From Pseudomonadota bacterium (lineage in GTDB: Bacteria; Pseudomonadota; Gammaproteobacteria; Acidiferrobacterales; Acidiferrobacteraceae), in NCBI GenBank assembly GCA_021794275.1, contig JAJYRD010000017.1, positions 1 to 64,000 of the forward strand: 64,000 nt of DNA, written 5' to 3'. How positions within the stretch are numbered: the first letter of the stretch is position 1; each line of letters begins with the position of its first letter. The notes under the pieces were generated by a model, which ran no database searches, was not told the DNA's origin, and saw only the letters and a list, made by a program, of their open reading frames with translations. The position numbers were made by a program, and so were the translations under genes. Below, in pieces: positions 15,335 through 39,564 of the stretch.

Positions 15335-16612
15335 TTAAGCCGCGAACAGTCGTTCGGCGAGGAACTGCGCCGCATCCAGACCCCAGGGCGGGATTTTCCC
15401 CTGGGTCCGGAAAAAGAGATCTTTGTACTGCATCTTCAATAGATACGGTACCCGCCCCATCTTCAAGACCTGCGTGTCCCCCCCATACCAGGAATTGGAG
15501 CGGATGTAGAACGCCTGGTTGTTGCCCATGTCTCCTATGCAGTACACGACGGGCTTCAAGGGTTCCGATGCGGCCGCGTCGCCGATGCGCCCGAGGTCCC
15601 GGGCAATCTGTTTGCCCACGATCTCGCTCTCCTGGTGTCCTATGGCCCCAAGCTTGGGCACGGTGACTGCGGCGGCGTCTCCGCAGGCCAGGATCTCGGG
15701 GTATTTGGGGTTACGCATGAGCATGTCTGTGACCACGAAGCCCTCTTCGTCGCATATGGGCAGCCCCTTCATGAACGGGTGTGGCACCCAGTCCGGAAGC
15801 AGGATCTTGAGCTCCGCATCCAGCGCATCCCCCTGCGTGAACCGCACGCCGTCCCGCGTGACCTCGGCGATGTCCCCTACGTTGTTGCGGTAATGAAATC
15901 CCATCTGGCTTGCGATGCCAAGAAGCGAATTGACCACCTGTTCCCCAGCATCCTCGGCAATCATCTTGCCAGGCGTGAAGACCGTGATCTTGTCGGGGCC
16001 GCCGAGCCCGTGATTCTTGAGCCAGGTAGCCATGGACAACATGATCTCGACCGGGGGGCCCTCGCAGGCGGCGTCCGCCATAGGCACGAGATCCTTGACG
16101 GCAGTGCCCTGATGGAAGCGGGCCGACCCGACCGCGATCGGACCGCCCTTGTATTGGCCCCCGAAGAGCGTCCTGCGCAGCTTGTTTCCGTAAAAGGTGT
16201 CGGAGGCGGCGTGCGCGTATCGCGCGAAGCCTGGGATCTTGTCATAGGCGAGCCGGCAGCCGAACGCGATGACGAGGTAGTCGTAGCCCATGGTCTCGGA
16301 CGGCGCCCCCTCGCGCTCCTTGGGCGTAAAGTCGACGGTCCGGGTGTCGGGGTTGATGGCCCGTACTTCGCCCTGGATGAAGGTCGCCTGCGCGTCAGTC
16401 AACGCCCGCGAGGTGTCCATCTTGAGCGTCGTCGCCGGATCGCGGCCCTCGAAGACCTCGGCCGGGATGTTCGGTATGAAGAGGAGATAGGGGTTGCGGT
16501 CGATCACGGTGATGTCGACCGCATCGCCCGCGTATTCACGGACCTTCTGGGCGCTCGCGAGTCCCGCGAAGTTGCCGCCGAGCACGAGGACGTGGGGTTT
16601 GTTTGATGTCAT
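15335..16612 (-). CDS. SQR-like FAD oxidoreductase
   Basis: This is a 425-residue pyridine-nucleotide-disulfide-type flavoprotein resembling sulfide:quinone oxidoreductase. The FAD motif is VLVLGGNFAGLASA (residues 8-21). The second nucleotide half ends in YPEILACGDAAAV. Cysteines lie at 119, 183 (AACEGPPVEI), 287, 310 and 358 (VVYCIGDMG). Cys183 and Cys358 fit the two catalytic positions shared by SQR-like enzymes. I see no cysteine in the 128-equivalent stretch, so a classic three-cysteine type I SQR is less likely. No helix for deep membrane insertion is obvious, but the C-terminus LPYLLKMQYKDLFF could bind the membrane. It is ten bases downstream of sor. It probably oxidises sulfide or a persulfide made by SOR and reduces quinone. 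Confidence 0.78.
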   Translation of the reverse strand: MTSNKPHVLVLGGNFAGLASAQKVREYAGDAVDITVIDRNPYLLFIPNIPAEVFEGRDPATTLKMDTSRALTDAQATFIQGEVRAINPDTRTVDFTPKEREGAPSETMGYDYLVIAFGCRLAYDKIPGFARYAHAASDTFYGNKLRRTLFGGQYKGGPIAVGSARFHQGTAVKDLVPMADAACEGPPVEIMLSMATWLKNHGLGGPDKITVFTPGKMIAEDAGEQVVNSLLGIASQMGFHYRNNVGDIAEVTRDGVRFTQGDALDAELKILLPDWVPHPFMKGLPICDEEGFVVTDMLMRNPKYPEILACGDAAAVTVPKLGAIGHQESEIVGKQIARDLGRIGDAAASEPLKPVVYCIGDMGNNQAFYIRSNSWYGGDTQVLKMGRVPYLLKMQYKDLFFRTQGKIPPWGLDAAQFLAERLFAA

Positions 16613-16622
16613 GTCGGATCTC

Positions 16623-17588
16623 CTAGCGAACGAGATGGTCCCGCCACGTACCTTCCTCCATCATGGAGGCGAAGAGCATGTAGTAGGGGCCGCGGTTGAT
16701 GTGGGCGAGTACGCCCTGGTCGTGGATACGGCGCGCCTCGACGTTGACGAGAACCTTGCCCAGGCCCTGGTGGGCAAGTTCCGCGGCCTCCCACTCCATG
16801 TGCACGAAGTATTGAGTGGGCGTGGCCGGTGGGATTGGCGGGTGGTCCAGGGGTTTGTCGCCGTAATTGGTGGCGTATTTCGGAGGGTTGGCCCCGAGTG
16901 TCGCCTTGGTCATGCCTTCGGGGTCGAGCTGAAACGACCCGATCGCCGATACCCCGATCTGCTTCAAAAGCATCCATCCGAGCATGCCGGGCGCATGCGC
17001 CATGAGCCAGCCCATGGTAGCGCGCACCCCTTGTTCGAAATCGTCCTCGTGGCCATGCATCACGCTATGATCGCCGAGGGCTATCACGCGGTTGGGTAGG
17101 GCGAGCTTGGGCACCGGCTTCTGCGCGGCCGCCCGTCCCATCATGAGCGCCGGCACATCGGTAAGCCCGATCGAGGGCGGCAGGTCCGAGGCGACGATCT
17201 CGTAAAGCGGCTCCCAGGGGCCTTCCACCACCATCGCGAGACAGTGGGAGCAGAGCTCGTAGATGGTATCGAACTGGAGATAGTGCATCTCCTCGTGTGA
17301 TCGCGCATCCTTCCACACCGTGTACTGAAACATCCCGATCGGGTTCAGCGTCTCGCGCATATCAAGGGCGCCGCCACCGTAGCGCCCGGCCATGGGATGT
17401 ATGCCCACCTGCAGGAGTTGGTCGAAGCCGAGAAAGCCTGGATGGGTCGCGGTCGTGATGCACACCTTGGGCCCGACCTTGTGCATGGCCTCGTAGCTCT
17501 CCGGGCGGTTCGCGATCCGCGCCATATTGATGGCGATGATCGGGTTTTGCGCGCCGGCACCTAGTGTCGGGGCCGCTGTTCCGGGCAT
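16623..17588 (-). CDS. sor: Sulfur oxygenase reductase
   Basis: SOR disproportionates elemental sulfur with oxygen to sulfite, thiosulfate and sulfide in the cytoplasm, without cofactors other than mononuclear iron. The 321-residue product has every expected ligand. His98, His102 (SHEEMH) and Glu126 (GPWEP) match the iron site. Cys43 (KVCITTATHPG), Cys113 and Cys116 (CSHC) match the pocket cysteines. All six sit 12 positions later than the archaeal Acidianus numbers I recall (31, 86, 90, 101, 104, 114). The shift reflects a short N-terminal extension. GGAGGAC precedes ATG 17588. It is first in an operon with the SQR-like and helical genes. SOR is known in acidophilic archaea and a few bacteria such as Acidithiobacillus and Acidiferrobacter relatives. 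Confidence 0.95.
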   Translation of the reverse strand: MPGTAAPTLGAGAQNPIIAINMARIANRPESYEAMHKVGPKVCITTATHPGFLGFDQLLQVGIHPMAGRYGGGALDMRETLNPIGMFQYTVWKDARSHEEMHYLQFDTIYELCSHCLAMVVEGPWEPLYEIVASDLPPSIGLTDVPALMMGRAAAQKPVPKLALPNRVIALGDHSVMHGHEDDFEQGVRATMGWLMAHAPGMLGWMLLKQIGVSAIGSFQLDPEGMTKATLGANPPKYATNYGDKPLDHPPIPPATPTQYFVHMEWEAAELAHQGLGKVLVNVEARRIHDQGVLAHINRGPYYMLFASMMEEGTWRDHLVR

Positions 17589-17973: not shown

Positions 17974-20900
17974 ATGGGCCAGGGACCCGAGGTTGTGATC
18001 GTAGGCGCGGGACCGGCCGGCATAAGCGCCGCGTTACGGCTCGCGCGGGCGGGCGGCCGGGTGCTGGTCCTCGAAGGCGCGGAATTCGCCGGCGCGGAGA
18101 ATTGGTCGGGCGGCGTCTATCATGCCGAACCCTTGTTGCGTGAAGACGTCTTAGGCGTCCGCGAATGGGAGCGCGCACCACGCGAACGGCGCATCGTCGG
18201 GCGCTCCCTGTTCGTCCATGGCGGCGACGGCTGCGCCGGATTCGAGGCGCGGGCGGTGACGGGCAACGACTACGGCGAGGCATGGACCGTACTGCGTCCC
18301 AAACTGGACCGCTATCTGGCGAGTCGCGCCATCGCTTACGGGGCCACGCTCCTGCCGCGTACCGCGGTTACGGGCTTGCGATTCCGGGACGGGCGGGTGG
18401 TCGGGGTCGACACCGCGCGCGGGCCGGTCGAGGCGCCCATCGTGTTTCTGGCCGAGGGTGATGCCGCGGGTCTGCTCACGCGCGCCGGGCTCGAGCGCCC
18501 GATCGTCCATTATGCCCAGGGGATCAAGGCGGTGTTCACGCTGCCTGCCCACGACATCGAGGCGCGATTTGGCGTCGGCGCTGGCGAGGGCATTGCCCAG
18601 GAATGGTTGTTGCGCAACGGAATCTGGAGGGGACGCACGATCCCCTTGAACACCACGGGTTTCGTGTACACCAACCGCGATAGTGTGTCGGTGGGACTCG
18701 TGCTCCCGCTCCAGTCTCTCGCCGAGGAGAGTCCGGTCGACCACCCCCAGCTCTTGCGCCGTTTTCTGTGCCTGCCGGAGGTTGCCGCCTTGCTCGAGGG
18801 CGCCACCCAGGTGGCCTATGGGGCCAAGGTCATACGGTCCGGAGGCCTGCGCGAGGGGGTAGTGGGCGTTTATGACGGGCTTGCCGTCGGCGGCGCCTCC
18901 CTGGGTCTCGGGCTCGAATTTCCTTACCCGAATTTCATGGGGCCTGCCGCTATGTCGGGGGTCGCCTTCGCCGACGCGGTGCTCGATCTGCGCGGGCGCG
19001 GCGACTATTCGGCGGCGGCCTTGGCCGAGTCCTATGGGGGTCGGCTACGCCAGAGCACCGAATACCAAAACGCGCGTTTTGCCGCCGCCTGGCCCGAGGC
19101 CCTGCACGCAAGCCCTCTCGTCTTCGACCATCTCCCGGCCCTCGTGGGCTCGGTGATGGCCGGCCGCGCGGCGCATGCGCGGGCGGCCGCGCGTGCCACA
19201 CTATCCGTCCTGCGCGATCGCGCCACGCTCGCGGCGGCAGCCACCGTGCCGCGCGCGGCTGTTAAGACCGACAAGCCGCCGCTTACCGTGACCTTCCTGC
19301 GCGGCGACGGCGGCCGCCTCACGCCGGTAGACGGCACGGGGCCATTCCTTGCGACGCTCGCCCGCGCTCTCGGTTATTTCTACGGGCGCTCGCTGCCGCT
19401 GCTGGAGACCCGCTTGGCCGCGGCTATCCCAGAGAAGGTGCGCTCGCTCGCCGCGCGAGCGCTGGCACGGGGCGCGGGACTTGCCGCATCCGGGGGCGTG
19501 GGTTTCCTGAGCGACGCGGCCGTGGCTGCGGCTGCGGGGCGCTCGAGCCTTAAGGGCGTGGCGTTTTATCGTGCCGAGCGGGTGCTGCGGGTCCGTCTCG
19601 CCCTCGATGGGAGCCCTGCCGATTCTCCCATGGCGTGGCTCGCCCCTTTGGGGCGCCCTTCGCCGGAGCGGCGACACATCCATGTCCCGCGCGACCTCCC
19701 GCCGGACGCGGCCCAGCGCCTGCGTCGTGTCTGTCCCGCCGAGGTCTATAAACCGGGAGGGGCGGCCGGCGGTGCGTGGGCTACATTCGAGAATTGCATA
19801 AAATGCGAGTCATGCCGAATCGCGGTCCGGGCCGTGGACTGGCGCCGCACCGACGGCCATGGGCTCATCTACGAACTGCCTGGAGCCCGGCGCTTCGGGC
19901 TCGATGGAAGCGTCACCTGCGACTTTGCCGCGCGCCCCGCCGGCTCGCAAGAGGATGAGGTCCTGCGGGGGCTCGCCGCGAGTATCGCGACGAGACCCGT
20001 AGCGCCAGGCCCCGTGTTTCGCGACACCATGCGCGAGGCCCTGATCGCCGCGCGCCCGCCGGGGCTCGAGCGCCTGCTTCGGCTCTGGGATCTCGGCGCG
20101 CACGGGGCCGTGCATGACGCACTCCTGGGCCGCCTCCCACGGACCCGCCCAAGCGTGCCCCTCGCGGATATCGAAACGAGCACGAGGCGCGCCCTGCGCG
20201 AGGCGGCGGCTGCGCTCTTTCCGGCTTCGCGTCTGGCCGCCATGACCGAGGCATGGACCGAGGATGATCGCGTCGATCTCGCGCGATTTTTGCGCAGTCG
20301 CCGGGCCTCACCCGAGGATCTCCTGGCGGCTCTTGCGGAGCACGACACCGGACTTGGCTTCGTCGCCATGCACCACTTGCTCGCCGAGGGCAGGCGTGGG
20401 AAACACCTCACGCACCTTAGCGCTGATCTTTGGCGCGAAGCCGATGGCCTGTCCCCGTGGTTTCCGGACGTCGGCGCCGATACGGGGGAGGGGGCAGCCC
20501 TGTTGAATGCGATCGGCGCGCAACGGGCCGTCGGCCTCGATGTCGCGCGCTGCGTCCGTGTCCCTGCCCCGCGGGGCGCGCCGCTTCTGGTCGACGCCCT
20601 GTTCGCCCGTTATCTGATCGCGCTCATGGAAGGGTTTGGCGAGGCGCTCGGGGCGCGCGCCGAGGCCCATGCCAGGGCACGCGTCCAGTTTGCCGGCGGC
20701 TATCGCGATCGCGACGGTGCGGATGCCGTGATCAAGTTCGGCGCGGTCAAGCGTCTGCTCGCGGTCATCGAGTACGCGCTCATGCTTGCTCATCGTCTCC
20801 GTGGCTGGTGCGATCGTAAGCCGCAGGCCGTGGTTGCGTTGCTCAAGGAGCGCTTTGGTGTCTCCCAGGATGGGGTCGCATGGTGCGCGGGTCAGGTATT

Positions 20901-23900
20901 CGGCGGCATCGCCTACTCCGAGGACGATATCCTGAGTCGTCGCTACCGGGACGCGATGGTGCTTGCGCAGTGGCCGGCGGGCCACGACGGGCGCGCGTAC
21001 GGCGCCTGGGAGCGGGACTTGTGGGGGGGCCCCGACGATGCCCCGGCAGCCTTGTTTTTGCGCCACGGTTTCTTTGAAAGCCCACGGCCGAGCGTGACGG
21101 GCGTGGTACGTGGTCGTCCGCCGGTAGCGCCTCGCCCCACTGCGGTCTTCGCCTACCGAAGCGGGGCCTTTTTGTCTGGGGAGCTTCTGGGCGCGACGGA
21201 CGTTTTCGTCCCGGAGGACTTTCGGGCCGATCCCGCGCTACGGCGTATGCGCGCGCAGGTCCTGCGCCTCGTGCGCGGCGGGTTTCGTGACCCAGGGGGC
21301 GGAGCGTATGGTCGCTACATCGATGAGCGCCATGGGGTGCCGGGCTCCGATGTCGAGCGTCTGAAGACGTTCAAGGCCTTTGCCACCGTAATTCCCGAGA
21401 GCCTGGGCGGGCGCGGCTTGAGCAAGGCTGAGTACGCCGTGCTTGCAGGCCTTCTCATGGGCCGTGTCGACCCGTCGGTGGGACTCTTGGTCATGGCAAG
21501 TACGAGCATCGGTACCATGCCGGTGTTGCTGGCCCTGCAAAAGGATATCCCGCGGCTGGTCCAGGAACTCGGCGAACTCCCACCCGGCGCGTTCGAAGAC
21601 CTGCGGCGCGCGGCGCGCAGGCTGCGCGCCTTGAGCGAGCGTCCGCGGCCGGCGGCCATCAAGAAGACCCTGGAGGCCATGGCGGCGCTCGTGAAGGCGC
21701 GCTTCCTGAAACCCGGCTCGGTCCTGAAGTACCTGGCCCGCGAGCTGCTTGGCGACTTCGAGACCTTGGTGGCCGTCGCGCGTGCCCGCGACCTGGACGG
21801 CCTCGCGACCCACGCGCTCGCCTTCCAGGAAGCCCTCGCGCGCCTGTCCACGAGACTGGCCGAGGAGCGCGCGCGCCTCCCCGAGCGCATAGCCGCCCAC
21901 GAACGCTTCCTACGTTTCCTCGCCCACCGCCAGATCAGCGCATTCGCGCTCACCGAACCCTCGGCCGGTTCCGACACGGGAGCAGTCACCACCCGCGCCC
22001 GTCGCGTCCGCGCGTCACTCGCGCAAGCCAGCGCCGGCCTCTGGCGCTTCAGTGCGCCACAGGGAACGCGGATATTGCTGGATGAGCGGCGCCTCGAGTT
22101 TACGGACGCCGGGATCCACTACCGCCTGCCGGACGGCGGTCTGGCGCGTCTCGACGACAGCGCCTGGGATGCCGGGCAGGGCCGTCGCCGCGTAGTACTC
22201 GAATCCGGGATCATGCACGACTACGACGATATGGGCGTGCCGGTGGAAACCCTGGAGGGCCCGGTCTATGAGTACTTCGAGTTGTCGGGCGCGAAGATGT
22301 GGATAACGAACGGCTCGATCGCCGATCGCTACTGTCTGTATGCCCAGGCGGCGGGGGGCGAGACCGGATTCATGGTCGATCGGCGCTCAGAAGGGTTTGC
22401 GGTGGGGCGCGACGAACGCAAGCTCGGCCAGCGTGCCTCGCCCACAAACGAACTGGCTTTATCTTCCGTCCGCGTGTGCGCAAGTCGCATCATAGGTTTC
22501 GAGGGACATGGGCAGGTGAGCGCCCTGGAGACCCTGAGTGTGGGGCGCGGTGGCCTCGTGGTCGGTGCCGCGAGTCTCCTGGAGCGCCTGATCGAGGACT
22601 ACGAGGACCGCTTCGAGGCCGGGTCCGAGGTGGCGGCGGTGGCGCGTTCCGAGTACGAGCGGGTACGCACCTTGGGCGCGCGCCTCGTGGGCCTCATGGA
22701 CCGCGCCGACTTGCGCCGCGGGGACTTTCGGATCGAGGCGGCGCTATCCAAGTTCTTGGCCTCCGAGGGCCTGCATCGCGTGCTGCTCGCGCTCGAGCGC
22801 GCCTGCGGCCCTCAGGCGGCCGCCGTGTCGGAGCCGATCGAGAAGTGGCGGCGCGACGCCCGCATCCTCAACATTTACGAAGGCACAAACGAGATTCAGC
22901 GCTTCCTCGTGTTGAAGGATCTCGCGCCACTCTTGGCCCGATTTACGGAGATGCGTGCGACGCAAAGCCCGCCCCTCGATCGGGCTTTGCGGGTCTTCGC
23001 GGATTTCGTGCGCCCGCGCGTGTCCGGGCTCAAGGCCCGCCTCGGGGGCGACGGCGACGCCCAACTCCTGTGGTTCCCCGTGGTCGATTGGGTGGGCGAG
23101 CTTTATGTTTGGGCAGCGCTCGTCGAGCGGCGCCTGGCGCTTGCATCCCGTGGCGCCGACGAGCGCGCCCAAGGCCCCCTGCGCGCCCTCGAGTCGGCCT
23201 GCGAGGAGGGAGTCGGCGGCCGCGCCCAGGCCGTCGCCGCTTTGTTCGATGCAGCCGCGGCCTACGAGGAGGCGGTGGTGGTGCTTGCCAACCGCAGGGC
23301 CGATCGGCGCACCCGGCCCATGGTGGCGTTCGGGGCGTTCGATGGCCGCGTCGTAGTACTCCTGCGCAACGTCGCGCATCCCGATGGGACGGACATACGG
23401 CTGGATGGTGGGGACCGCGCCGCCCTCGACCAGGCCCTCGAGGCCCGGGATCGCGTGCCCACATTGCGTCTCACGACCGTGGTCTTGTCCGCCGGGGCGT
23501 GCCCCGATCTCGTGCAACGCCTGCGCGCCGCGGGCGCCAATCCGCTTGCCGTGACTACGGGGGGGCTCGCAGACCCGGCGGCCGTGGCCGGCCTCCTTGC
23601 GCCGCTTATGCCGGCGCTGATCCTCGCAGGCCCCCAGGAACCGGCCTTTCTGGAAGCCTTGGGGGGCGCTTTGGGTGCTGAGTTCGTCGACGGCGTGGCC
23701 GGTTTCGCCGGGGCTGGCCGCCGGGGTTATGTCGTGAGGCGCGGCCATGGTGCGCCTTTTCGCGTCGGCCATGGACGAACGCTCGTGGCATCCGGTCGCT
23801 TCGACGCCACCGGCCGCGGTGAGGATTTTACAATCGGCGATTGGCTCGAGGCCTTGAAGAGCCTCCCGCAGGAACGGAGGCTCACGTCCGCTTTGGCGAC

Positions 23901-24972
23901 CAGCTGCCCTGAGGCGCCGACCACCGCTTCCGCGCCGGCCGTGATGGATAGGCCCGAGGACCTCGTGGCGTGGCTTTTCGCGCAGATCGGGGGCGGCCCG
24001 GTGGAGGCGCCGAGGGTTGTACGCGGCAGCGCCACGCTTGCGGCGGTGATGTTGATCGCGGGCTCCGGCGCGCTCGGGCGTGGTCCGGGAGCGCTGGCGC
24101 GCAGCCTGGGACCCGCGATGGGCGCTGTGTGGCTCGCGCACGATAGCGGGGACGGGCCCCCCGAGGGTGTCGATGGGCCGCTTTTTCGGCTGATGGTGCC
24201 CGACGCCCCCGAAGCTTGCGCGGCGCCCCTCGCTGATCATCTGGCCCAGGCCGCATATATCGTCCTCGGGCCCGAACACGCGGGGCTTGCAGGCGCCTTG
24301 GCCAAGCGTCTGCGCCGTCCTCTCTATACGGGCGTAGTCGCCCGGCGGGGCGACGATCTCGTCTGCGAGCGCGACCGGGGTTCCTGGCTTACCCCCTGTC
24401 CCGACCGCGCGGTCCTGGTCACAGGCCGCGCCCCCGCCGCGGGCCCCGCGCGTACCGGCGGAATCTGTGTCGTGGAGGACCTGGCGTCTCCCGCCGCGCG
24501 GCCAGGCGGCTTGGCCCGCGCGCTGCGCAGGCACCGCGCCACGGGTCTTGCGGCCGCCGAGGTGGTCATCGATCTGGGGCAGGGTGTGGCCGATAGCGTG
24601 TTCTTCAAGAGAGAGCTTATGAGGCTTAAATCGGGGCTCTCGGATATGATGGGATGCGAGGTTGCGTTCGGCGCGACCCGCAGGTTCGTGCAGGAGAGCG
24701 GGATTTTGTCGTCTGAACACCAGATCGGGCAGACTGGGCTCCAGGTGGCGCCGCGGATACTGTTTGCATTGGGCGTCTCCGGGGCGCCACAGCATATGGC
24801 CGGTATCGCGCCCGAGACGCAGATCGTCGCCATCAATTGCGACCCGGAGGCGCCGATCTTCGGTGCGCGGGCGGGCGCGCGGCCGGTTGTGCGCTGCGTG
24901 GGCGAGGTGAGGGCCTGGGTCGGAGCCCTGTTGACGGCGCTCGCCCGGACGGGGATGGAGGAGGCGACATGA
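17974..24972 (+). CDS. Giant fusion: ETF-QO (FixC) + FixX + acyl-CoA dehydrogenases + ETF beta + ETF alpha
   Basis: One 2332-residue protein carries a whole acyl-CoA oxidation electron chain. Residues 8-430 are FixC/ETF-quinone-oxidoreductase-like, with VIVGAGPAGISAA at 8-20 and YPNFMGPAAMSG near 320. Residues 565-640 form a FixX-type [4Fe-4S] domain with Cys587, Cys608, Cys611 and Cys614. Residues about 640-1070 look like an acyl-CoA dehydrogenase remnant, with the telltale QVFGGIAYSEDDILSRRYRDA. Residues 1075-1670 are a complete acyl-CoA dehydrogenase, with AFALTEPSAGSDTG, GAKMWITNGS and the catalytic-base motif IYEGTNEIQR (Glu1636). Residues 1780-1985 resemble ETF beta and 1998-2332 ETF alpha, including the FAD stretch SSEHQIGQTGLQVAPRI. 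ATG 17974 follows GGAAGGAGGA. The stop overlaps the thiolase start. Normally these are four or five separate proteins. Confidence 0.88.
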   Translation: MGQGPEVVIVGAGPAGISAALRLARAGGRVLVLEGAEFAGAENWSGGVYHAEPLLREDVLGVREWERAPRERRIVGRSLFVHGGDGCAGFEARAVTGNDYGEAWTVLRPKLDRYLASRAIAYGATLLPRTAVTGLRFRDGRVVGVDTARGPVEAPIVFLAEGDAAGLLTRAGLERPIVHYAQGIKAVFTLPAHDIEARFGVGAGEGIAQEWLLRNGIWRGRTIPLNTTGFVYTNRDSVSVGLVLPLQSLAEESPVDHPQLLRRFLCLPEVAALLEGATQVAYGAKVIRSGGLREGVVGVYDGLAVGGASLGLGLEFPYPNFMGPAAMSGVAFADAVLDLRGRGDYSAAALAESYGGRLRQSTEYQNARFAAAWPEALHASPLVFDHLPALVGSVMAGRAAHARAAARATLSVLRDRATLAAAATVPRAAVKTDKPPLTVTFLRGDGGRLTPVDGTGPFLATLARALGYFYGRSLPLLETRLAAAIPEKVRSLAARALARGAGLAASGGVGFLSDAAVAAAAGRSSLKGVAFYRAERVLRVRLALDGSPADSPMAWLAPLGRPSPERRHIHVPRDLPPDAAQRLRRVCPAEVYKPGGAAGGAWATFENCIKCESCRIAVRAVDWRRTDGHGLIYELPGARRFGLDGSVTCDFAARPAGSQEDEVLRGLAASIATRPVAPGPVFRDTMREALIAARPPGLERLLRLWDLGAHGAVHDALLGRLPRTRPSVPLADIETSTRRALREAAAALFPASRLAAMTEAWTEDDRVDLARFLRSRRASPEDLLAALAEHDTGLGFVAMHHLLAEGRRGKHLTHLSADLWREADGLSPWFPDVGADTGEGAALLNAIGAQRAVGLDVARCVRVPAPRGAPLLVDALFARYLIALMEGFGEALGARAEAHARARVQFAGGYRDRDGADAVIKFGAVKRLLAVIEYALMLAHRLRGWCDRKPQAVVALLKERFGVSQDGVAWCAGQVFGGIAYSEDDILSRRYRDAMVLAQWPAGHDGRAYGAWERDLWGGPDDAPAALFLRHGFFESPRPSVTGVVRGRPPVAPRPTAVFAYRSGAFLSGELLGATDVFVPEDFRADPALRRMRAQVLRLVRGGFRDPGGGAYGRYIDERHGVPGSDVERLKTFKAFATVIPESLGGRGLSKAEYAVLAGLLMGRVDPSVGLLVMASTSIGTMPVLLALQKDIPRLVQELGELPPGAFEDLRRAARRLRALSERPRPAAIKKTLEAMAALVKARFLKPGSVLKYLARELLGDFETLVAVARARDLDGLATHALAFQEALARLSTRLAEERARLPERIAAHERFLRFLAHRQISAFALTEPSAGSDTGAVTTRARRVRASLAQASAGLWRFSAPQGTRILLDERRLEFTDAGIHYRLPDGGLARLDDSAWDAGQGRRRVVLESGIMHDYDDMGVPVETLEGPVYEYFELSGAKMWITNGSIADRYCLYAQAAGGETGFMVDRRSEGFAVGRDERKLGQRASPTNELALSSVRVCASRIIGFEGHGQVSALETLSVGRGGLVVGAASLLERLIEDYEDRFEAGSEVAAVARSEYERVRTLGARLVGLMDRADLRRGDFRIEAALSKFLASEGLHRVLLALERACGPQAAAVSEPIEKWRRDARILNIYEGTNEIQRFLVLKDLAPLLARFTEMRATQSPPLDRALRVFADFVRPRVSGLKARLGGDGDAQLLWFPVVDWVGELYVWAALVERRLALASRGADERAQGPLRALESACEEGVGGRAQAVAALFDAAAAYEEAVVVLANRRADRRTRPMVAFGAFDGRVVVLLRNVAHPDGTDIRLDGGDRAALDQALEARDRVPTLRLTTVVLSAGACPDLVQRLRAAGANPLAVTTGGLADPAAVAGLLAPLMPALILAGPQEPAFLEALGGALGAEFVDGVAGFAGAGRRGYVVRRGHGAPFRVGHGRTLVASGRFDATGRGEDFTIGDWLEALKSLPQERRLTSALATSCPEAPTTASAPAVMDRPEDLVAWLFAQIGGGPVEAPRVVRGSATLAAVMLIAGSGALGRGPGALARSLGPAMGAVWLAHDSGDGPPEGVDGPLFRLMVPDAPEACAAPLADHLAQAAYIVLGPEHAGLAGALAKRLRRPLYTGVVARRGDDLVCERDRGSWLTPCPDRAVLVTGRAPAAGPARTGGICVVEDLASPAARPGGLARALRRHRATGLAAAEVVIDLGQGVADSVFFKRELMRLKSGLSDMMGCEVAFGATRRFVQESGILSSEHQIGQTGLQVAPRILFALGVSGAPQHMAGIAPETQIVAINCDPEAPIFGARAGARPVVRCVGEVRAWVGALLTALARTGMEEAT

Positions 24973-26261
24973 GTGCCAAGGTGTTTATTGTGGATGGGGC
25001 GCGGACGCCGTTTCTGAAGGCGCGCGACGAACCCGGGCCGTTCAGCGCCGCGGATCTCGCGGTGATGGCCGCGCGCGCCCTCTTGGCGCGTCAACCCTTT
25101 GACGCGGAGGAGCTCGACGAGGTGATCCTGGGCTGCGTCATCGCCGCCCCCGACGAGGCCAATATCGCGCGCATCGTTGGTCTTCGCGTGGGCACTGGCT
25201 TTGCGGTCCCGGCCTATACGGTCCAGCGCAACTGCGCCTCTGGGCTCCAGGCGGTGGCGAGCGCATACGATGACATCCGGTCAGGACGCGCCCATCTGGT
25301 GCTCGCCGGGGGCGCTGAGGCCATGAGCCGCGCCCCCATCCAATGGAACATGGCCATGAGCCGGTGGCTCGCGCGCCTGTATCGCGCCAAGACGCCAGTC
25401 CGACGCCTGCGGGCGCTCGCTGATTTCCGCATGGGGCATCTGCGGCCGGTGTTTTCGCTTCTGCTCGGTCTGCGCGACCCGGTGGTGGCGCTGTCCATGG
25501 GGCAGACGGCTGAGATCGTCGCGCATCGCTTCCATATAGGACGGCTCGCGCAGGACAGTTACGCCTTGCAGAGCCATCAGCGGGCGGCGGCGAGTCAGGC
25601 CGACGGGCTCTTGCGGGACGAGATCGAACCCCTGTACGGCTCGCGCGCCGACAGTTATGGCCAAGACGATGGGGTGCGCCCCGACACCGACCCAGAGAAG
25701 CTCGGCCGCCTGAAGCCTGTATTCGATCGGCGTTTCGGAGGCGTGACCTCGGGTAATAGCTCGCAGATCACAGACGGCGCGGCCGTTCTTGTGCTGGCAA
25801 GCGAGGCTGCGGTAAAACGCCGGCGCCTTTCGGTGCTAGGGGAGATCGTGGACCATGCCTGGGCAGGCGTGGACCCCGCGCAGATGGGGCTTGGGCCGGT
25901 GCATGCCACTGCCAAGCTCTTGCGCGCCCACAAGCTTGGCATCGGGGATCTGCGTCACGTGGAGCTGAACGAGGCGTTCAGCGCCCAGGTGCTGGCTTGT
26001 CAGGCCGCGTTCGCGAGCGAGGCCTACGCGAAACAAGAGCTCGGACTCGACGCCCCCTTGGGCGCGATCGACGCCGCGCGCCTGAACCCCCATGGGGGCG
26101 CGGTGGCCATCGGCCACCCGGTTGGTGCCACAGGTGCCCGGTTGGTCTTGCATCTGGCGCGCTCCTTGCGTGACGAGCCGGGGGCGCTCGGGCTTGCGAC
26201 CTTGTGCATAGGCGGGGGCCAGGGAGGAGCCATGCTCATACGGGGGGGCGGCGCATCATGA
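24969..26261 (+). CDS. Thiolase (acetyl-CoA acyltransferase, FadA/FadI type)
   Basis: This enzyme cleaves 3-ketoacyl-CoA with CoA in the last step of beta-oxidation, or runs in reverse. The 430-residue protein has the acyl-accepting Cys89 in QRNCASGLQAV, His375 in NPHGGAVAIGHP, His383, and the proton-shuttling Cys413 in LCIGGGQGG. ATG 24969 overlaps the stop of the fusion gene by four bases, so translation is coupled. The position next to the FadJ-type gene and the length of its loop region point to the long- or medium-chain FadA/FadI group rather than biosynthetic PhaA. The chain-length specificity cannot be read from the sequence. Confidence 0.93.
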   Translation: MSAKVFIVDGARTPFLKARDEPGPFSAADLAVMAARALLARQPFDAEELDEVILGCVIAAPDEANIARIVGLRVGTGFAVPAYTVQRNCASGLQAVASAYDDIRSGRAHLVLAGGAEAMSRAPIQWNMAMSRWLARLYRAKTPVRRLRALADFRMGHLRPVFSLLLGLRDPVVALSMGQTAEIVAHRFHIGRLAQDSYALQSHQRAAASQADGLLRDEIEPLYGSRADSYGQDDGVRPDTDPEKLGRLKPVFDRRFGGVTSGNSSQITDGAAVLVLASEAAVKRRRLSVLGEIVDHAWAGVDPAQMGLGPVHATAKLLRAHKLGIGDLRHVELNEAFSAQVLACQAAFASEAYAKQELGLDAPLGAIDAARLNPHGGAVAIGHPVGATGARLVLHLARSLRDEPGALGLATLCIGGGQGGAMLIRGGGAS

Positions 26262-28282
26262 CCGGCAAGAACTGGACAATTTCGGAGAAGGACGACATCG
26301 TGGAACTCGTCCTGGATGTGCCGGGTCGGCGCCACAACGTGCTGTCGAGCGAGGTCCTGGGCGATCTCGACCAGACGCTCGCCGAGATCGAGACCCGACC
26401 CCTGCGCGGGCTGCTCATCCGGTCGGGCAAGCCCGAGGGCTTCGTGGTCGGCGCCGACGTGCACGAATTTCGGCGCATCCTCGACGCCGCCCGCGCCGCC
26501 GAACTTACGCGCGCGGGTCAGATGGTCCTCGAGCGCCTTTCCCGGCTCCCCTACCCGTCGGTGGCGGTCATCCGTGGGCCGTGCCTCGGCGGCGGTCTCG
26601 AGCTCGCGCTCGCCTGTAGTTACCGTATTGCCTGCGACGATGAGCGCACGAGTCTCGCGCTGCCCGAGGTCAAGCTCGGCATCCACCCAGGTTTCGGCGG
26701 GACCGTGCGGCTGCCGGCCTTGATCGGGGCCTTGCCGGCGCTTTCCTTGATGCTCGGCGGACGCGCCGTGTCGGCGCGCCGCGCACGCGGCCTCGGGCTC
26801 GTGGACGAATGCGTGCCCGACCGTCACCTGGAGACCGCGGCGCGCGCGCTGTTGCGCGAAGTGCCGCCGAGGGCGCGTCCTCCGTGGCACCAGGCGTGGG
26901 TCGGGGCGCCGTTCCTGCGGCCCTACTTGGGTGCGTTCATGCAGTGGCGCCTGAAGGCGAAGGTCGACTGCCGTCATTATCCGGCCCCGTGCCGCGTCGT
27001 ATCCCTGTGGACGCGTCAAGCGTCCTTCGAGACCGAGGCCCTGTCGTGCGCCGAGATGCTCGTGACCCCCGCGAGCCGGCACCTCGTGCACTTGTTCGAG
27101 GTATCGGAGGGCCTGAAGCGCCGTGCGCGCGAACAGATCCACGGGATCCGGCGCGTGCATGTGGTGGGCGCCGGGGTGATGGGGGCGGACATCGCGGCCT
27201 GGGCGGCCCTCAGGGGTTTTCAGGTGAGCCTCCAGGATCGCGCGCCCGAGGTGCTTGCGCGCGCCATCAAGAAGGCCCACGGACTTTTCGCTCAGCGCCT
27301 GAAGGGCCGCGCCGCGGAGGCCGCGCGCGATCGCCTGATGCCGGATATGCGCGGTGGGGGCTTGTCGCGGGCCGACCTCGTGATCGAGGCGATTGTCGAA
27401 GATCGGGCCGCCAAGCGCGCGCTGTTTGCGCAGATCGAGACGCAGGTAGCGGAACGCGCGATCATTGCGACCAATACTTCCAGCATACCTCTGGACGAGC
27501 TCGCCACCGGGCTTGCTGTCCCCGGACGCCTGGTCGGCCTGCATTTCTTCAATCCCGTGGCCAAGATGCCCTTGATCGAGGTAATCGGCGGGGCCGCGAC
27601 TGCGCCCGCCACGCTTGCCGCCATGCGCAGCCTCGCCGTGAGCCTCGATCGCTTGCCGGTGGACGTCAAAAGCTCGCCCGGCTTCCTCGTAAATCGTGCC
27701 CTTATGCCTTATTTGCTCGAGGCCGTGACCCTTGCGGAGGAGGGCGTGGCGCTCGCCGACATCGACGAGGCGGCCACCGATTTCGGCATGCCCATGGGAC
27801 CGATCGCGCTTGCGGACACGGTGGGACTCGATGTCTGCCTGGCGGTAGCGCAGACCCTGGGCGCAGCCCTCGACATGCCGGTCCCGGCGCTGCTTGCGCG
27901 CAAGGTCGAGGTGGGGGCTCTCGGAAAGAAGTCCGGTCAAGGCTTCTACCGGTACCCCCGCCCGCGGCATTTCGCCTTGCGGCGGCGGCCGGTGCCAGAC
28001 TCCGCCATAGGCGAGCGGCTCATCATGCGGCTCGTAAACGAGGCGGCGCGCTGCCTGCGGCTTGGTGTCGTGGATGATGCCGACATGGTGGACATCGGCT
28101 TGGTCTACGGTACGGGCTTCGCGCCGTTTCGCGGTGGACCCTTGGGCTACGCCGCAGCCCTGGGGGCGGGCGAGGTGCGTAACCGGCTTTTGGAGTTGAC
28201 CGAGCGCCACGGGCCGCGCTTCACACCCGACGAGGCCTGGTCGCAAGGGGAGCTCCTTGCGCGCCGGTCCCCCAGCCTGTGA
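26258..28282 (+). CDS. FadJ/FadB-type enoyl-CoA hydratase / 3-hydroxyacyl-CoA dehydrogenase
   Basis: This is a bifunctional beta-oxidation enzyme of 674 residues. The N-terminal crotonase part shows the oxyanion-hole GPCLGGGLELALACSYRIA and the acidic ALPEVKLGIHPGFGGT. The dehydrogenase part starts near residue 300 with the NAD-binding VHVVGAGVMGADIAAWA. It continues with ATNTSSIPLDELA and LHFFNPVAKMPLIEVI, which carries the catalytic His, and the C-terminal helical region SSPGFLVNRALMPYLLEA. ATG 26258 overlaps the thiolase stop. It is the third gene of the fatty-acid operon. It is slightly shorter than E. coli FadB (about 729 residues) and closer to FadJ. Confidence 0.93.
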   Translation: MTGKNWTISEKDDIVELVLDVPGRRHNVLSSEVLGDLDQTLAEIETRPLRGLLIRSGKPEGFVVGADVHEFRRILDAARAAELTRAGQMVLERLSRLPYPSVAVIRGPCLGGGLELALACSYRIACDDERTSLALPEVKLGIHPGFGGTVRLPALIGALPALSLMLGGRAVSARRARGLGLVDECVPDRHLETAARALLREVPPRARPPWHQAWVGAPFLRPYLGAFMQWRLKAKVDCRHYPAPCRVVSLWTRQASFETEALSCAEMLVTPASRHLVHLFEVSEGLKRRAREQIHGIRRVHVVGAGVMGADIAAWAALRGFQVSLQDRAPEVLARAIKKAHGLFAQRLKGRAAEAARDRLMPDMRGGGLSRADLVIEAIVEDRAAKRALFAQIETQVAERAIIATNTSSIPLDELATGLAVPGRLVGLHFFNPVAKMPLIEVIGGAATAPATLAAMRSLAVSLDRLPVDVKSSPGFLVNRALMPYLLEAVTLAEEGVALADIDEAATDFGMPMGPIALADTVGLDVCLAVAQTLGAALDMPVPALLARKVEVGALGKKSGQGFYRYPRPRHFALRRRPVPDSAIGERLIMRLVNEAARCLRLGVVDDADMVDIGLVYGTGFAPFRGGPLGYAAALGAGEVRNRLLELTERHGPRFTPDEAWSQGELLARRSPSL

Positions 28283-28290
28283 GGATCGCC

Positions 28291-29958
28291 ATGCCGAATG
28301 CCCCGGCTACGCTTGGCGGGCTATTCGCCCGCCGCATCGCCACGACCGCCGATGAGCCGGCCTACCGGGGTTATGATGGCCGAAGGTGGCGCGCCTGGAG
28401 CTGGGGCGAGGCCGGGCGCGAGGTCGCGCGGGTGCGTGCGGCCTTCGCCGCGAGCGGATTGTCCCCCGGGGATCGCGTGGGCATCTGCGCCTACAACGCC
28501 CCCGAGTGGGTGTTCTGCGATATCGCGGCGCTGTCCCTGGGGCTTACAGTCGTGCCCTTGTTCTTCAACGACCGTCCGGAGAATATCGCCTATTGCCTGA
28601 GAGACGCGGGCGTGCGCTGGCTGTTCATTGATCGCCCGCCGGCCCCCGAGATCCTCGCCTGCGAACTTCAGGGCATCGTGAGCTTCAAGGACGTGCGTGG
28701 CGTCGTACCGTTCCGAGAGTGGCTGGCGGCCGGCCACAAGGCGCGCCCGGGGTCGCGCGAGCCGGAGGCCGACGATCTTGCGACCATCGTCTACACCTCG
28801 GGGACCACGGGTCGACCCAAGGGCGTCATGTTGAGTCACCGGAATATACTGGCCAACGTCGGTGCCTTGCTTGCGGCCATCCCCGAGGTCGCGATGCAGT
28901 CGCACCGCTTTCTATCGTTTTTGCCCCTGTCGCACATGCTCGAGCGGACCGTCGGGGAATTCGTGGCCGTGGCCATGGGTGCCGAGACCGTGTTCTCGCG
29001 CGGCATTACGGAGCTCGCTGCGGACCTCGAAGCCGCGCGGCCTACCATTCTTGTGAGCGTACCCAAGATCTTTGAGCGGACCTACGCCAAGATGCAGGAG
29101 GAGATGAAAGGATCACCGCGCCGAGAGCGGCTCCTGGCGCGTGCCTCTGCGGCAGGTCTGGCGGTCTTCGAGGGGCGCGCCCACGGACTCGAACGTCTGT
29201 CCGCCCGGCTCTATGATGCCTTGGTCGGCCGCGCGGTACGGCGCCGTCTGGGAGGAAAGCTGCGCTACGTGTTCCTGGGGGGTGCCCCGGCGTCGCCCCG
29301 TCTGCTCGCCTACTTCACGGGCCTCGGCCTGCGTTTCTTGCAGGGATACGGGCTCACCGAGACCGCTCCTGTGATCAGCTGCCTTCGCCTTGCTGATCGC
29401 GATCTTGCTTCCGTGGGCCGGCCCCTTGCGAACCTCACCCTGCGCTTCTTGAACGACGAGATCTGCGTCAAGGGTCCGAGCGTCATGCAAGGGTATTGGA
29501 ATCAACGGGAGGCTACCGCCGAGGTCATCGACACCGAGGGATTCCTCCATACCGGGGACCTCGGGCGCCTCGAGAACGGTCTTTTGTACCTAACCGGACG
29601 GGCCAAGGACATCATCGTCCTCTCGAACGGGGAAAAGGTCGCGCCGGCCGACGTCGAGCAGGCCATCCTCCAGGACCGCGCCTTCGAGCAGGCCCTCGTG
29701 GTGGGGGAGGGGCGTGGTGCCCTGGCGCTGCTGGTAGTAAGCGACATAGAGGACGAAACGGCTCTGCGCGACCGGGCCAACGAGCAGCTGCACGCCTTTC
29801 CGGGATACACCCGGATCCGCCATGTGCTGCGCGTCAACGGTCCCTGGACGATCGAAAATGGCTTCCTCACACCCACTCTGAAGGTCCGGCGCCAATGGAT
29901 AGAGGAGCGCTACCAGGCGGCCATAGACGGCCTCTACACCGCCGGCCGCGACGCTTGA
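28291..29958 (+). CDS. Long-chain acyl-CoA synthetase (AMP-forming)
   Basis: This enzyme activates fatty acids to acyl-CoA at the start of the pathway. The 555-residue protein carries the AMP-binding P-loop YTSGTTGRPKGVMLSH, the substrate motif GYGLTETAPVISC, and the FACS signature HTGDLGRLENGLLYLTGRAKDIIVLSNGEKVAPADVE. ATG 28291 is preferred because GAGGA is spaced about five bases before it; an in-frame GTG at 28279 overlaps the previous stop. It ends the operon, so the whole route from free fatty acid to acetyl-CoA and reduced quinone is encoded in 12 kb. No transport protein or FadR-like regulator is nearby. Confidence 0.9.
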   Translation: MPNAPATLGGLFARRIATTADEPAYRGYDGRRWRAWSWGEAGREVARVRAAFAASGLSPGDRVGICAYNAPEWVFCDIAALSLGLTVVPLFFNDRPENIAYCLRDAGVRWLFIDRPPAPEILACELQGIVSFKDVRGVVPFREWLAAGHKARPGSREPEADDLATIVYTSGTTGRPKGVMLSHRNILANVGALLAAIPEVAMQSHRFLSFLPLSHMLERTVGEFVAVAMGAETVFSRGITELAADLEAARPTILVSVPKIFERTYAKMQEEMKGSPRRERLLARASAAGLAVFEGRAHGLERLSARLYDALVGRAVRRRLGGKLRYVFLGGAPASPRLLAYFTGLGLRFLQGYGLTETAPVISCLRLADRDLASVGRPLANLTLRFLNDEICVKGPSVMQGYWNQREATAEVIDTEGFLHTGDLGRLENGLLYLTGRAKDIIVLSNGEKVAPADVEQAILQDRAFEQALVVGEGRGALALLVVSDIEDETALRDRANEQLHAFPGYTRIRHVLRVNGPWTIENGFLTPTLKVRRQWIEERYQAAIDGLYTAGRDA

Positions 29959-37231: not shown

Positions 37232-39448
37232 TTATTCGTCCATGGCGAAGACTTGGGCCGCGATACCGCCCGCGTCGAGCCCGTTATAGTCCAGGAGCTC
37301 CCCAGGCGAGGCGGCGGTGTCACCGCGTCTCCATGCGAGGGTCGCTCGCCTCGGGGTTTTCGTACGCAACAGCACAGGCTCAAGCGAGCCCGAGGGTCCA
37401 CCACTTATTGCCACCAAGCGATCGCCGTCGAATAGCCGCGCGAACTGCGCGTCTCCCATGAAGCCGCCGTCGGGTTCGGCGACGGTGCCAGAGGCAACGT
37501 CGGAGGGCCGGTACAGTTGCCGCGGATTTACGACCGCCACTATGCGCACGCCGAATCCTTCCGCCTCCAGCCGCTCCTTGGCGGCGAACACCGACAACAG
37601 GATCATGTCCCCGGCCGCCGCCAAAACGACTCGGCCGCGCCGCCCGTCGGGGCCTTCGTAGAGGACCGCGGCGCCCTCGCGCACCGCGCGCCGCGCCGCC
37701 TCCATGCTCATATAGACTGGGAGGGGGCTCTTGGAGGCGATGATGGCCATACCCTTATTCCAGCTGGTCGCCGCGTATTCGTAGGCCGCTTGCGCGGCAT
37801 TGGCGTCGGGGGGGAACAACAGGTAGACGTTGCCGTTACGCATCTGTGCTGCGATGTAGTTCTCGATCTCCGGCCGTTGGTGGGTCCAGCCATTGCGCCC
37901 CTGCTCAAGGGCGCCTGCGGTAAACAGGCAGACGGCAGACGGCGTGCGGCGTCTGAGCTCGGCCATGGCCTGGGTCACGGTCTGATAGATGGGCCACCCG
38001 TTGATGGCGAAGGATTCATAGGAAAGCCAGAGACTGCGGCTGCCAAAGAGGGCGAGTCCGGCGGCAAGGCCCGCGCAGGCGTCCTCGCTCAGCGGTTCAT
38101 AGACCTGCCCTCCGGGTTCCTGGTTGTAGAGGGGGTCCGAAGTGGGGTGCCGGATCTTCAACGCGTCGTTGATGTTCTTAAGCCCCGAGGCCTCGTTGCC
38201 GTCGGCGTTCGTGACGACGAATCGCGGGTCCTTCCCGCCGAGCCACGCGACCAGCGCCCCGACCGCCGTGGACGAAACAGCCTTCTCGGTCGGGCCATAT
38301 TCCTTGACAGGAAAGCCCCCCGGATCGTGAAGCTCCAGGGTTTGCTCCGTCACCATCGTCTGGGCCGCCGGACCTCCTCCCGCCCGCATGAAATTTTCCC
38401 GCACTAGGGCCCATGCCTCCGGGCTTAAGGCGCGCGCCGCGAGCGCCGCCTCGATATGCGGCTTATCGAGCGTGTCGCCCGGGTAGAGGTTGTGGGATTT
38501 CGCCCCTTGGGCATGGACACCGGCGCCCTTCAGCTGCTTTATGATGAGGGCTGTAAGCGTCCCGCCAAGCGCACTGCGCGCGGCCTCGTCGGTGGCGGCG
38601 AGCACTGCTTGGCCAAAGGCCATGCGCTGGGCGAAGGAAAACCGGGTCGAGTCCACGTAGCGCCCGACCTGACCCGCGTCGTCAAAGTCCTTGGCATCGA
38701 CCAGGACCACGCGCCCGAAGCCATGGGCCTCGAAGTAGCGGCGCATGTCGCTGTTGGAGAGCTCCGATACCATGGAGTGGTGCTCTTGACTGTAGCCGTT
38801 CCAGACCAGCGTGGGCAGGAAATTCGTGGTCGCCGGATAGCTCGTGTGAAAGTGCTTGATCGCGCTCAGGACATAAGGTTCGCCGAGTCCGCCATCGCCT
38901 ATCGTCACAGGAAAGAGCAGGCCCGGATGGAGAAGGGCGCCCGCCATGGCGAAGTGTTGGCCCTGGCCCAGCGGACCCGCGGGGGCCAATATCCCAGGGA
39001 TCGCCCCCGACAGGTGTCCGAGCAGACCGTGCTGTTCGCGAAAGCGCCCCATGAGGTCGGCCATGGTGCGGATCCCGAGCGTTTCCAGAGATCCGTCCAG
39101 AAACATAGCACTATAAAAGCCCGGTGCGTGATGGCCGACTTCCGTGACTACGTGCGTGTGCCCAAGCATGACAAGGGCTGCGTAGGCTTCGGCGCTGGAC
39201 GCAAAACCCCCCGGATGCCCCGAGGCCTTGGACGCGCACATCTGAAGCGTGACGTAACGGAGCGCATCGGCCATGAGCAAGGTCTGGTAGGCGGCCTCCT
39301 TGGAGCCCGCGTCCTTGATCGCTCGGGCGTTCTCGGGGATGGCCGGGCGCGACCCAAGGGTCGCAAAGTCGGGCCATGGCGCACCGAAGGAATGCATCCC
39401 GGTGCAGAAAGCGGGCGCGGCGGGCGGGGAAGCGCTCTTTGAGGTCAT
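37232..39448 (-). CDS. Transketolase/phosphoketolase-like TPP enzyme
   Basis: This 738-residue thiamine-diphosphate enzyme has a transketolase-like layout. The N-terminal half has KASGHPGG, GHHAPGF, PLGQGQHFAMAG and a TPP motif of the form IGDGGLGEPYVLSAIKHF with a following NGYSQEHHS. The pyrimidine-binding half has NADGNEASGL and YEPLSEDACAGLAAGLALFG. The EQGRNGWTHQRPEIENY stretch is phosphoketolase-like. It is shorter than known xylulose-5-P phosphoketolases (about 790-850) and lacks their opening segment. Databases sometimes label relatives 'xylulose 5-phosphate 3-epimerase'; that is a recollection and doubtful. ATG 39448 is the chosen start. It is coupled to the sugar-acid kinase gene, so the kinase product is a plausible substrate. 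Confidence 0.68.
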   Translation of the reverse strand: MTSKSASPPAAPAFCTGMHSFGAPWPDFATLGSRPAIPENARAIKDAGSKEAAYQTLLMADALRYVTLQMCASKASGHPGGFASSAEAYAALVMLGHTHVVTEVGHHAPGFYSAMFLDGSLETLGIRTMADLMGRFREQHGLLGHLSGAIPGILAPAGPLGQGQHFAMAGALLHPGLLFPVTIGDGGLGEPYVLSAIKHFHTSYPATTNFLPTLVWNGYSQEHHSMVSELSNSDMRRYFEAHGFGRVVLVDAKDFDDAGQVGRYVDSTRFSFAQRMAFGQAVLAATDEAARSALGGTLTALIIKQLKGAGVHAQGAKSHNLYPGDTLDKPHIEAALAARALSPEAWALVRENFMRAGGGPAAQTMVTEQTLELHDPGGFPVKEYGPTEKAVSSTAVGALVAWLGGKDPRFVVTNADGNEASGLKNINDALKIRHPTSDPLYNQEPGGQVYEPLSEDACAGLAAGLALFGSRSLWLSYESFAINGWPIYQTVTQAMAELRRRTPSAVCLFTAGALEQGRNGWTHQRPEIENYIAAQMRNGNVYLLFPPDANAAQAAYEYAATSWNKGMAIIASKSPLPVYMSMEAARRAVREGAAVLYEGPDGRRGRVVLAAAGDMILLSVFAAKERLEAEGFGVRIVAVVNPRQLYRPSDVASGTVAEPDGGFMGDAQFARLFDGDRLVAISGGPSGSLEPVLLRTKTPRRATLAWRRGDTAASPGELLDYNGLDAGGIAAQVFAMDE

Positions 39449-39528
39449 GAACAGTCTCGGGCCTTGATAGGGAGTTGTTACTTTAAGGAGAGATGGGGTG
39501 CGAGGCAAGGCGCGAAGCCCAGAAAAAA

Positions 39529-39564
39529 GGCGCACAAGCCGCATGGGTAAGCGACTGGTGCGCC
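39529..39564 (-). terminator. Rho-independent terminator of the first substrate-binding-protein locus
   Basis: On the minus strand a 14-bp stem with two mismatches (39564-39551 pairing with 39542-39529) and an 8-nt loop is followed by six T residues. Its relative with 13 perfect pairs is at 44082-44117. The two terminators share sequence around the stem, which shows that the loci are duplicates. Confidence 0.7.

Follow-up and report, generated by a model that had tools for sequence, protein, structure and literature searches.

Can the whole path from acyl-CoA to quinone be housed in a single polypeptide? Transfer of electrons from acyl-CoA to electron transfer flavoprotein (ETF) and then to ETF:quinone oxidoreductase (ETF-QO) is a textbook diffusible flavoprotein shuttle that is normally carried out by several separate proteins. 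The question is raised by an open reading frame in the window analysed here, a 64,000-nucleotide stretch of contig JAJYRD010000017.1 from a genome taken to be that of an Acidiferrobacter (assembly size 2.68 Mb, 92.7% complete). The frame occupies 17974-24972 on the forward strand, runs without internal stops from an ATG at 17974, just 5' of which lies a purine-rich, ribosome-site-like ggagg stretch, to a TGA at 24970-24972, and encodes a protein of 2332 residues with a calculated mass of 248 kDa, whose N-terminus (MGQGPEV...GAGPAG) is common to congeners. The initial annotation of the locus had claimed a single 2332-residue frame without frameshift, with FixC, FixX, acyl-CoA dehydrogenase (ACAD), EtfB and EtfA modules in that order. 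The first claim held exactly, and the second held, with retention of the cofactor and catalytic residues in five phyla. Two amendments are required, as the fusion is a widespread protein family and no one-off, and it contains a pair of ACAD units, with the catalytic glutamate retained in the second alone. A degenerate ACAD (approximately residues 780-1003), a VLCAD-like domain (1656-1780) and a hydrophobic linker between FixC and FixX (397-560) had been overlooked. The order of modules is FixC-type ETF-QO, linker, FixX-type ferredoxin, ACAD-1, ACAD-2, VLCAD-like domain, EtfB and EtfA.

All modules except the linker are backed by profile searches and by two AlphaFold models (pLDDT 86 and 85), and the profile, PDB and model matches exclude fortuitous similarity. 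Purifying selection acts on each domain, with dN/dS values of 0.08-0.40 over all fusion domains. A pseudogene, an assembly fusion and a frameshift artefact are excluded, given this selection and the unbroken state of the frame in many independent genomes. The initial annotation had named fortuitous similarity, a stop or frameshift that splits the frame, and separate expression as grounds for its own refutation, and none of these was met. Long open frames are also found on the reverse strand opposite the fusion (22744-24795, 683 aa) and opposite the downstream FadB gene (26024-28246, 740 aa), and are likely to be a by-product of codon usage at approximately 69% GC.

Each of the 14 sampled genomes of the genus to which the window belongs has the fusion; contig ends truncate some of the copies. 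In genus g7, which belongs to a second family (f5) of the same order, Acidiferrobacterales, it occurs in 5/5 genomes at approximately 45% identity. A class-wide draw recovered it in one of 185 genomes, namely the window's own. Beyond this class, the fusion was found in Nitrospirota (16/198 sampled genomes), Acidobacteriota (6/119), Planctomycetota (4/99) and Verrucomicrobiota (1/115), where each count includes the genome on which the draw was centred; no fewer than five bacterial phyla thus harbour the fusion. A search of the PLSDB plasmid database returned no match to the fusion. Unbroken homologous frames range from 2261 to 2902 aa, and the idea that the genes are split in other phyla was rejected, as nearly all copies there are also fused. 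The exceptions lie in Nitrospirota and comprise one in-frame TAG (L058/L082) and two frame breaks (L052 and L070), with the halves remaining in order; these interruptions may be errors of metagenome-assembled genomes, and a natural split is equally undecided. On a phylogenetic tree, a fully supported branch sets FixC of all fusions apart from the canonical FixC that some of these genomes also encode. The tree is consistent with a fusion that arose once and then spread, in whichever direction.

The FixC/ETF-QO flavoprotein module (17974-19161, forward strand; residues 1-396) possesses a FixC-type FAD fold with a GxGxxG motif, is identified by NCBIfam FixC-type models and matches PDB 7koe_C in a direct single-sequence search (E 8e-31). 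A profile of residues 1-640 matches FixC (5e-57), the FixX chain 7koe_D (6e-7) and ETF-QO 2gmh (3e-21). The FixX-type [4Fe-4S] ferredoxin module (19654-19893, forward strand; residues 561-640; PF05187) had been assigned the ligands Cys587, Cys608, Cys611 and Cys614, an assignment that held: the four cysteines are invariant in an alignment of 29 sequences and fit the [4Fe-4S] spacing C-x20-24-C-x2-C-x2-C. FixX and EtfB are too divergent for confident calls on a single sequence and were found with family profiles. Across 16 diverse relatives, PF00441, PF02770 and PF00766 were detected in 16/16, PF01012 in 10/16 and PF05187 in 8/16. The ubiquinone-binding domain PF21162 gave only a weak match (E 0.015 in the window's fusion and 0.006 in one relative). 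The fusion resembles ETF-QO and FixCX (PDB 7koe chains C and D, and 2gmh) in its FAD module, which is approximately 30% identical to canonical FixC, and in its C-x20-C-x2-C-x2-C ferredoxin, but differs in being joined C-terminally to ACAD and ETF and in having a linker of approximately 165 residues with a hydrophobic segment.

This linker (19162-19653, forward strand; residues 397-560) spans the site of a hydrophobic segment that is a putative membrane anchor. Many relatives belonging to other phyla have their most hydrophobic run of 19 residues in this linker, with Kyte-Doolittle values of up to 2.75, where values above 2 are strong. Hydrophobicity is weaker in Acidiferrobacterales (1.1-1.9), and in the window's protein the linker peaks at 1.42, below other segments of the same chain. 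The segment resembles a membrane helix, and attachment to the membrane, the location of the quinone, is inferred to be likely for the strongly hydrophobic relatives in other phyla. For the window's own fusion, with its weakly hydrophobic linker, attachment is a possible inference and no more.

The linker that follows FixX and the first dehydrogenase unit, ACAD-1, occupy 19894-20982 on the forward strand. ACAD-1 (approximately residues 780-1003; C domain 868-1003) gives a profile match to butyryl-CoA dehydrogenase (E 3e-12) and scores above the PF00441 cut-off in several relatives. Motif alignment shows that this degenerate ACAD keeps R903-x-Q905-F906 (RVQF) and Q974-x-F-G-G and lacks the catalytic Glu of the YEGT motif. 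Its C domain has dN/dS values of 0.076 and 0.085 in two comparisons, among the lowest in the protein. ACAD-2 (21154-22938, forward strand; residues 1061-1655) is an active-type dehydrogenase with a three-domain fold that carries TEPSAGSD, WITNG and YEGTNE, the last with the catalytic Glu1636. ACAD middle and C domains were found by direct Pfam search of the window's single sequence, and E1636, TEPxAGSD and the motif residues of both ACAD-1 and ACAD-2 are invariant across phyla. An AlphaFold model of residues 640-1790 (pLDDT 85, pTM 0.82) matches acyl-CoA dehydrogenases at Z scores of approximately 25. Against VLCAD 2uxw, it aligns over 505 residues (Z 23.6) through the C-terminal helical domain, to model residue 1149, which places a VLCAD-like domain at 22939-23313 on the forward strand (residues 1656-1780).

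The FAD motifs RxxFG and QxxGGxG, missing from ACAD-2, are found instead in ACAD-1, within the same polypeptide. In ordinary ACADs such as MCAD, the RVQF and QxFGG motifs reach the FAD of the neighbouring subunit. Motif alignment thus shows ACAD-2 to be a split-motif ACAD and not a typical homomeric one, while its activity is inferred. A comparable division is known from the mycobacterial alpha2beta2 ACAD ChsE4-ChsE5, in which the alpha subunit holds the isoalloxazine, the Glu and the substrate, and the beta subunit holds the ADP-ribose part (PMC11153573). In both systems the Glu/substrate site and the FAD ADP-side motifs lie on different units, whereas in the fusion both units share one chain with ETF and ETF-QO. 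By analogy, ACAD-1 and ACAD-2 may work like the beta and alpha subunits, respectively; no kinship to FadE26/27 is claimed. VLCAD shares with the fusion the ACAD core, the C-terminal helical domain and a catalytic Glu in a YEGT-type motif, but in the fusion a degenerate ACAD comes first in the chain and the active unit is without cross-subunit FAD motifs. ACAD-1 and ACAD-2 are inferred to pair within the molecule as a pseudo-dimer that has a single active site.

The C-terminal tail comprises an EtfB module (23314-24003, forward strand; residues 1781-2010) and an EtfA module (24004-24969, forward strand; residues 2011-2332), the latter with an FAD domain at residues 2192-2278. EtfA is recovered by direct search of the window's protein (PF00766, E 2e-17), and a profile of residues 1780-2332 matches EtfA (1e-34) and EtfB (9e-20). 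An AlphaFold model of the same residues (pLDDT 86, pTM 0.84) has EtfA as its top Foldseek matches and aligns to EtfB structures at Z 18. The EtfA FAD-site residues R2236, Q2250-G2252, S2269-G-A and H2274 are invariant across phyla. Among the parts of the fusion that have diverged most and evolve fast are EtfB and the N-terminal stretch of EtfA. In Acidiferrobacter, the nucleotide site of EtfB, at which AMP or a second FAD would bind, appears eroded when its loop is read by eye. The tail is like EtfAB in its folds and its EtfA FAD-site residues, but unlike EtfAB it is fused, beta then alpha, to the C-terminus of a dehydrogenase, and its EtfB has strongly diverged.

The window's genome contains one other detected ACAD and other ETF genes in the form of a fixABC(X) cluster located between nifV/nifA and nifB (L027, contig C32: 36000-54000). 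As this canonical FixABCX lies among nif genes, it probably serves nitrogenase, and its position suggests that the window's acidophile genome may be capable of nitrogen fixation. In a 99% complete relative (G026), neither an ETF nor an ACAD was detected besides the fusion; no further ACAD was detected in G021, G030 and G034, and no further ETF in several Nitrospirota and Planctomycetota genomes. These relatives' assemblies are drafts, and a missing ETF or ACAD is not proof of absence.

These data bear on the possibility that the ACAD of the fusion uses a separate, soluble ETF, with the fused one retained merely as a structural relic. The fast evolution of EtfB and the EtfA N-terminal part and the presence of another ETF in the window's genome favour a relic, but the invariant EtfA FAD-site residues and the several genomes with no other detectable ETF make it unlikely. 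A second possibility is FixABCX-type bifurcation, in which quinone and a low-potential acceptor would each receive part of the electrons from NADH or acyl-CoA. In its favour, the FixC, FixX, FixA-like and FixB-like modules make up a FixABCX set, and 7koe (EtfABCX) ranks among the best matches. In enzymes of the FixABCX type, the bifurcating FAD resides in EtfB (PMC5861303), but this expected bifurcating module is degenerate in the fusion, its site being judged by eye; a separate nif-linked FixABCX exists in the window's genome, and the operon of the fusion is one of beta-oxidation. Bifurcation is accordingly considered improbable.

That operon consists of four genes, of which the fusion is the first, and each start overlaps the preceding stop. 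The fusion is followed on the forward strand by a 3-ketoacyl-CoA thiolase (24969-26261; NF006030, E 2e-189, over its cut-off), whose ATG overlaps the fusion stop as ATGA, by a FadB/FadJ-type enoyl-CoA hydratase/3-hydroxyacyl-CoA dehydrogenase (26258-28282; NF008363, E 1e-153), which overlaps the thiolase stop, and by a long-chain acyl-CoA ligase (28279-29958; NF004837, E 3e-70), which overlaps the FadB stop as GTGA. This order is kept across the sampled Acidiferrobacterales, and thiolase and FadB genes adjoin the fusion in two Planctomycetota loci and one Nitrospirota locus.

Divergent from the fusion, on the reverse strand, lie genes for a sulfur oxygenase/reductase-like protein (16623-17588; NF047630, E 1e-82, below its cut-off) and a sulfide:quinone reductase (SQR)-like flavoprotein (15335-16612), and both remain beside the fusion in many congeners. 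Elsewhere in the window, a 770-aa reverse-strand frame (37232-39544) resembles xylulose-5-phosphate/fructose-6-phosphate phosphoketolase, by eye only.

A third possibility is that the fusion runs backwards as a quinol-driven enoyl-CoA reductase, for which it can be said that the hosts include probable sulfur-oxidising autotrophs and that the fusion has sulfur oxygenase reductase-like and SQR-like neighbours. However, the fusion shares its operon with genes for acyl-CoA ligase, FadB and thiolase, which favours oxidation. Redox potentials run downhill from ACAD to ETF to quinone, which also favours oxidation, and reverse operation is very unlikely.

The fusion is likely to be a single-chain, membrane-attached acyl-CoA:quinone oxidoreductase for fatty-acid beta-oxidation; its activity, cofactor binding and membrane attachment are inferred, and there are no biochemical data. 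What the computation shows is the modules and their order, the conserved residues, the conservation of the fusion, the operon context, and the lack of a detected alternative ETF or ACAD in some relatives. In the proposed mechanism, acyl-CoA would be oxidised by Glu1636 at the FAD of ACAD-2, with ACAD-1 acting as a non-catalytic pseudo-partner that gives the FAD-binding motifs usually supplied by a neighbouring subunit. From ACAD-2, electrons would move to the FAD domain in the EtfB-EtfA tail, and the tethered ETF domain would pass them to FixC/FixX at the membrane, where quinone would be reduced; the thiolase, FadB-type enzyme and acyl-CoA ligase of the operon would complete the beta-oxidation cycle. 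The bound cofactors, the activity, the membrane attachment, the pseudo-dimer, the electron path, and whether transfer is intra- or inter-chain all belong to inference.

Besides the lack of biochemical data, several points count against this oxidoreductase reading. The divergence of EtfB and the EtfA N-terminal part, together with the eroded-looking EtfB site, leaves it possible that coupling differs; the linker of the window's protein is only weakly hydrophobic; no single model spans all the modules or gives the distances between cofactors, and the electron path is inferred; and the window's genome also has another ACAD and a nif-linked ETF. The initial annotation had proposed that the fusion would let a single molecule carry electrons all the way from acyl-CoA to quinone, which is plausible and unproven; inter-chain transfer in an oligomer is not excluded. 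A bolder reading, to which the balance tips only slightly, is that the tethered ETF swings between the ACAD pseudo-dimer and the membrane FixCX of the same chain without a diffusible carrier, and that the fusion is the first known single-polypeptide acyl-CoA:quinone oxidoreductase and an old family spanning at least five phyla.

Each module of the fusion is known and its chemistry is that of the ACAD-ETF-ETF-QO chain; what is new is the architecture and its wide distribution. No description of the fusion was found in the open-access literature searched, with subscription journals outside the search, and within that scope the earlier claim that no natural fusion of all these modules has been described held. 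Annotation pipelines are liable to overlook a fused ETF. If the proposed function is correct, a one-chain version would permit direct tests of domain-swing transfer and of the need for a mobile ETF pool, and would provide a tethered system in which to model the loose encounters of ACAD with ETF and of ETF with ETF-QO, which are affected in human MADD. It would also account for fatty-acid oxidation by some acidophilic and subsurface bacteria without canonical ETF genes.
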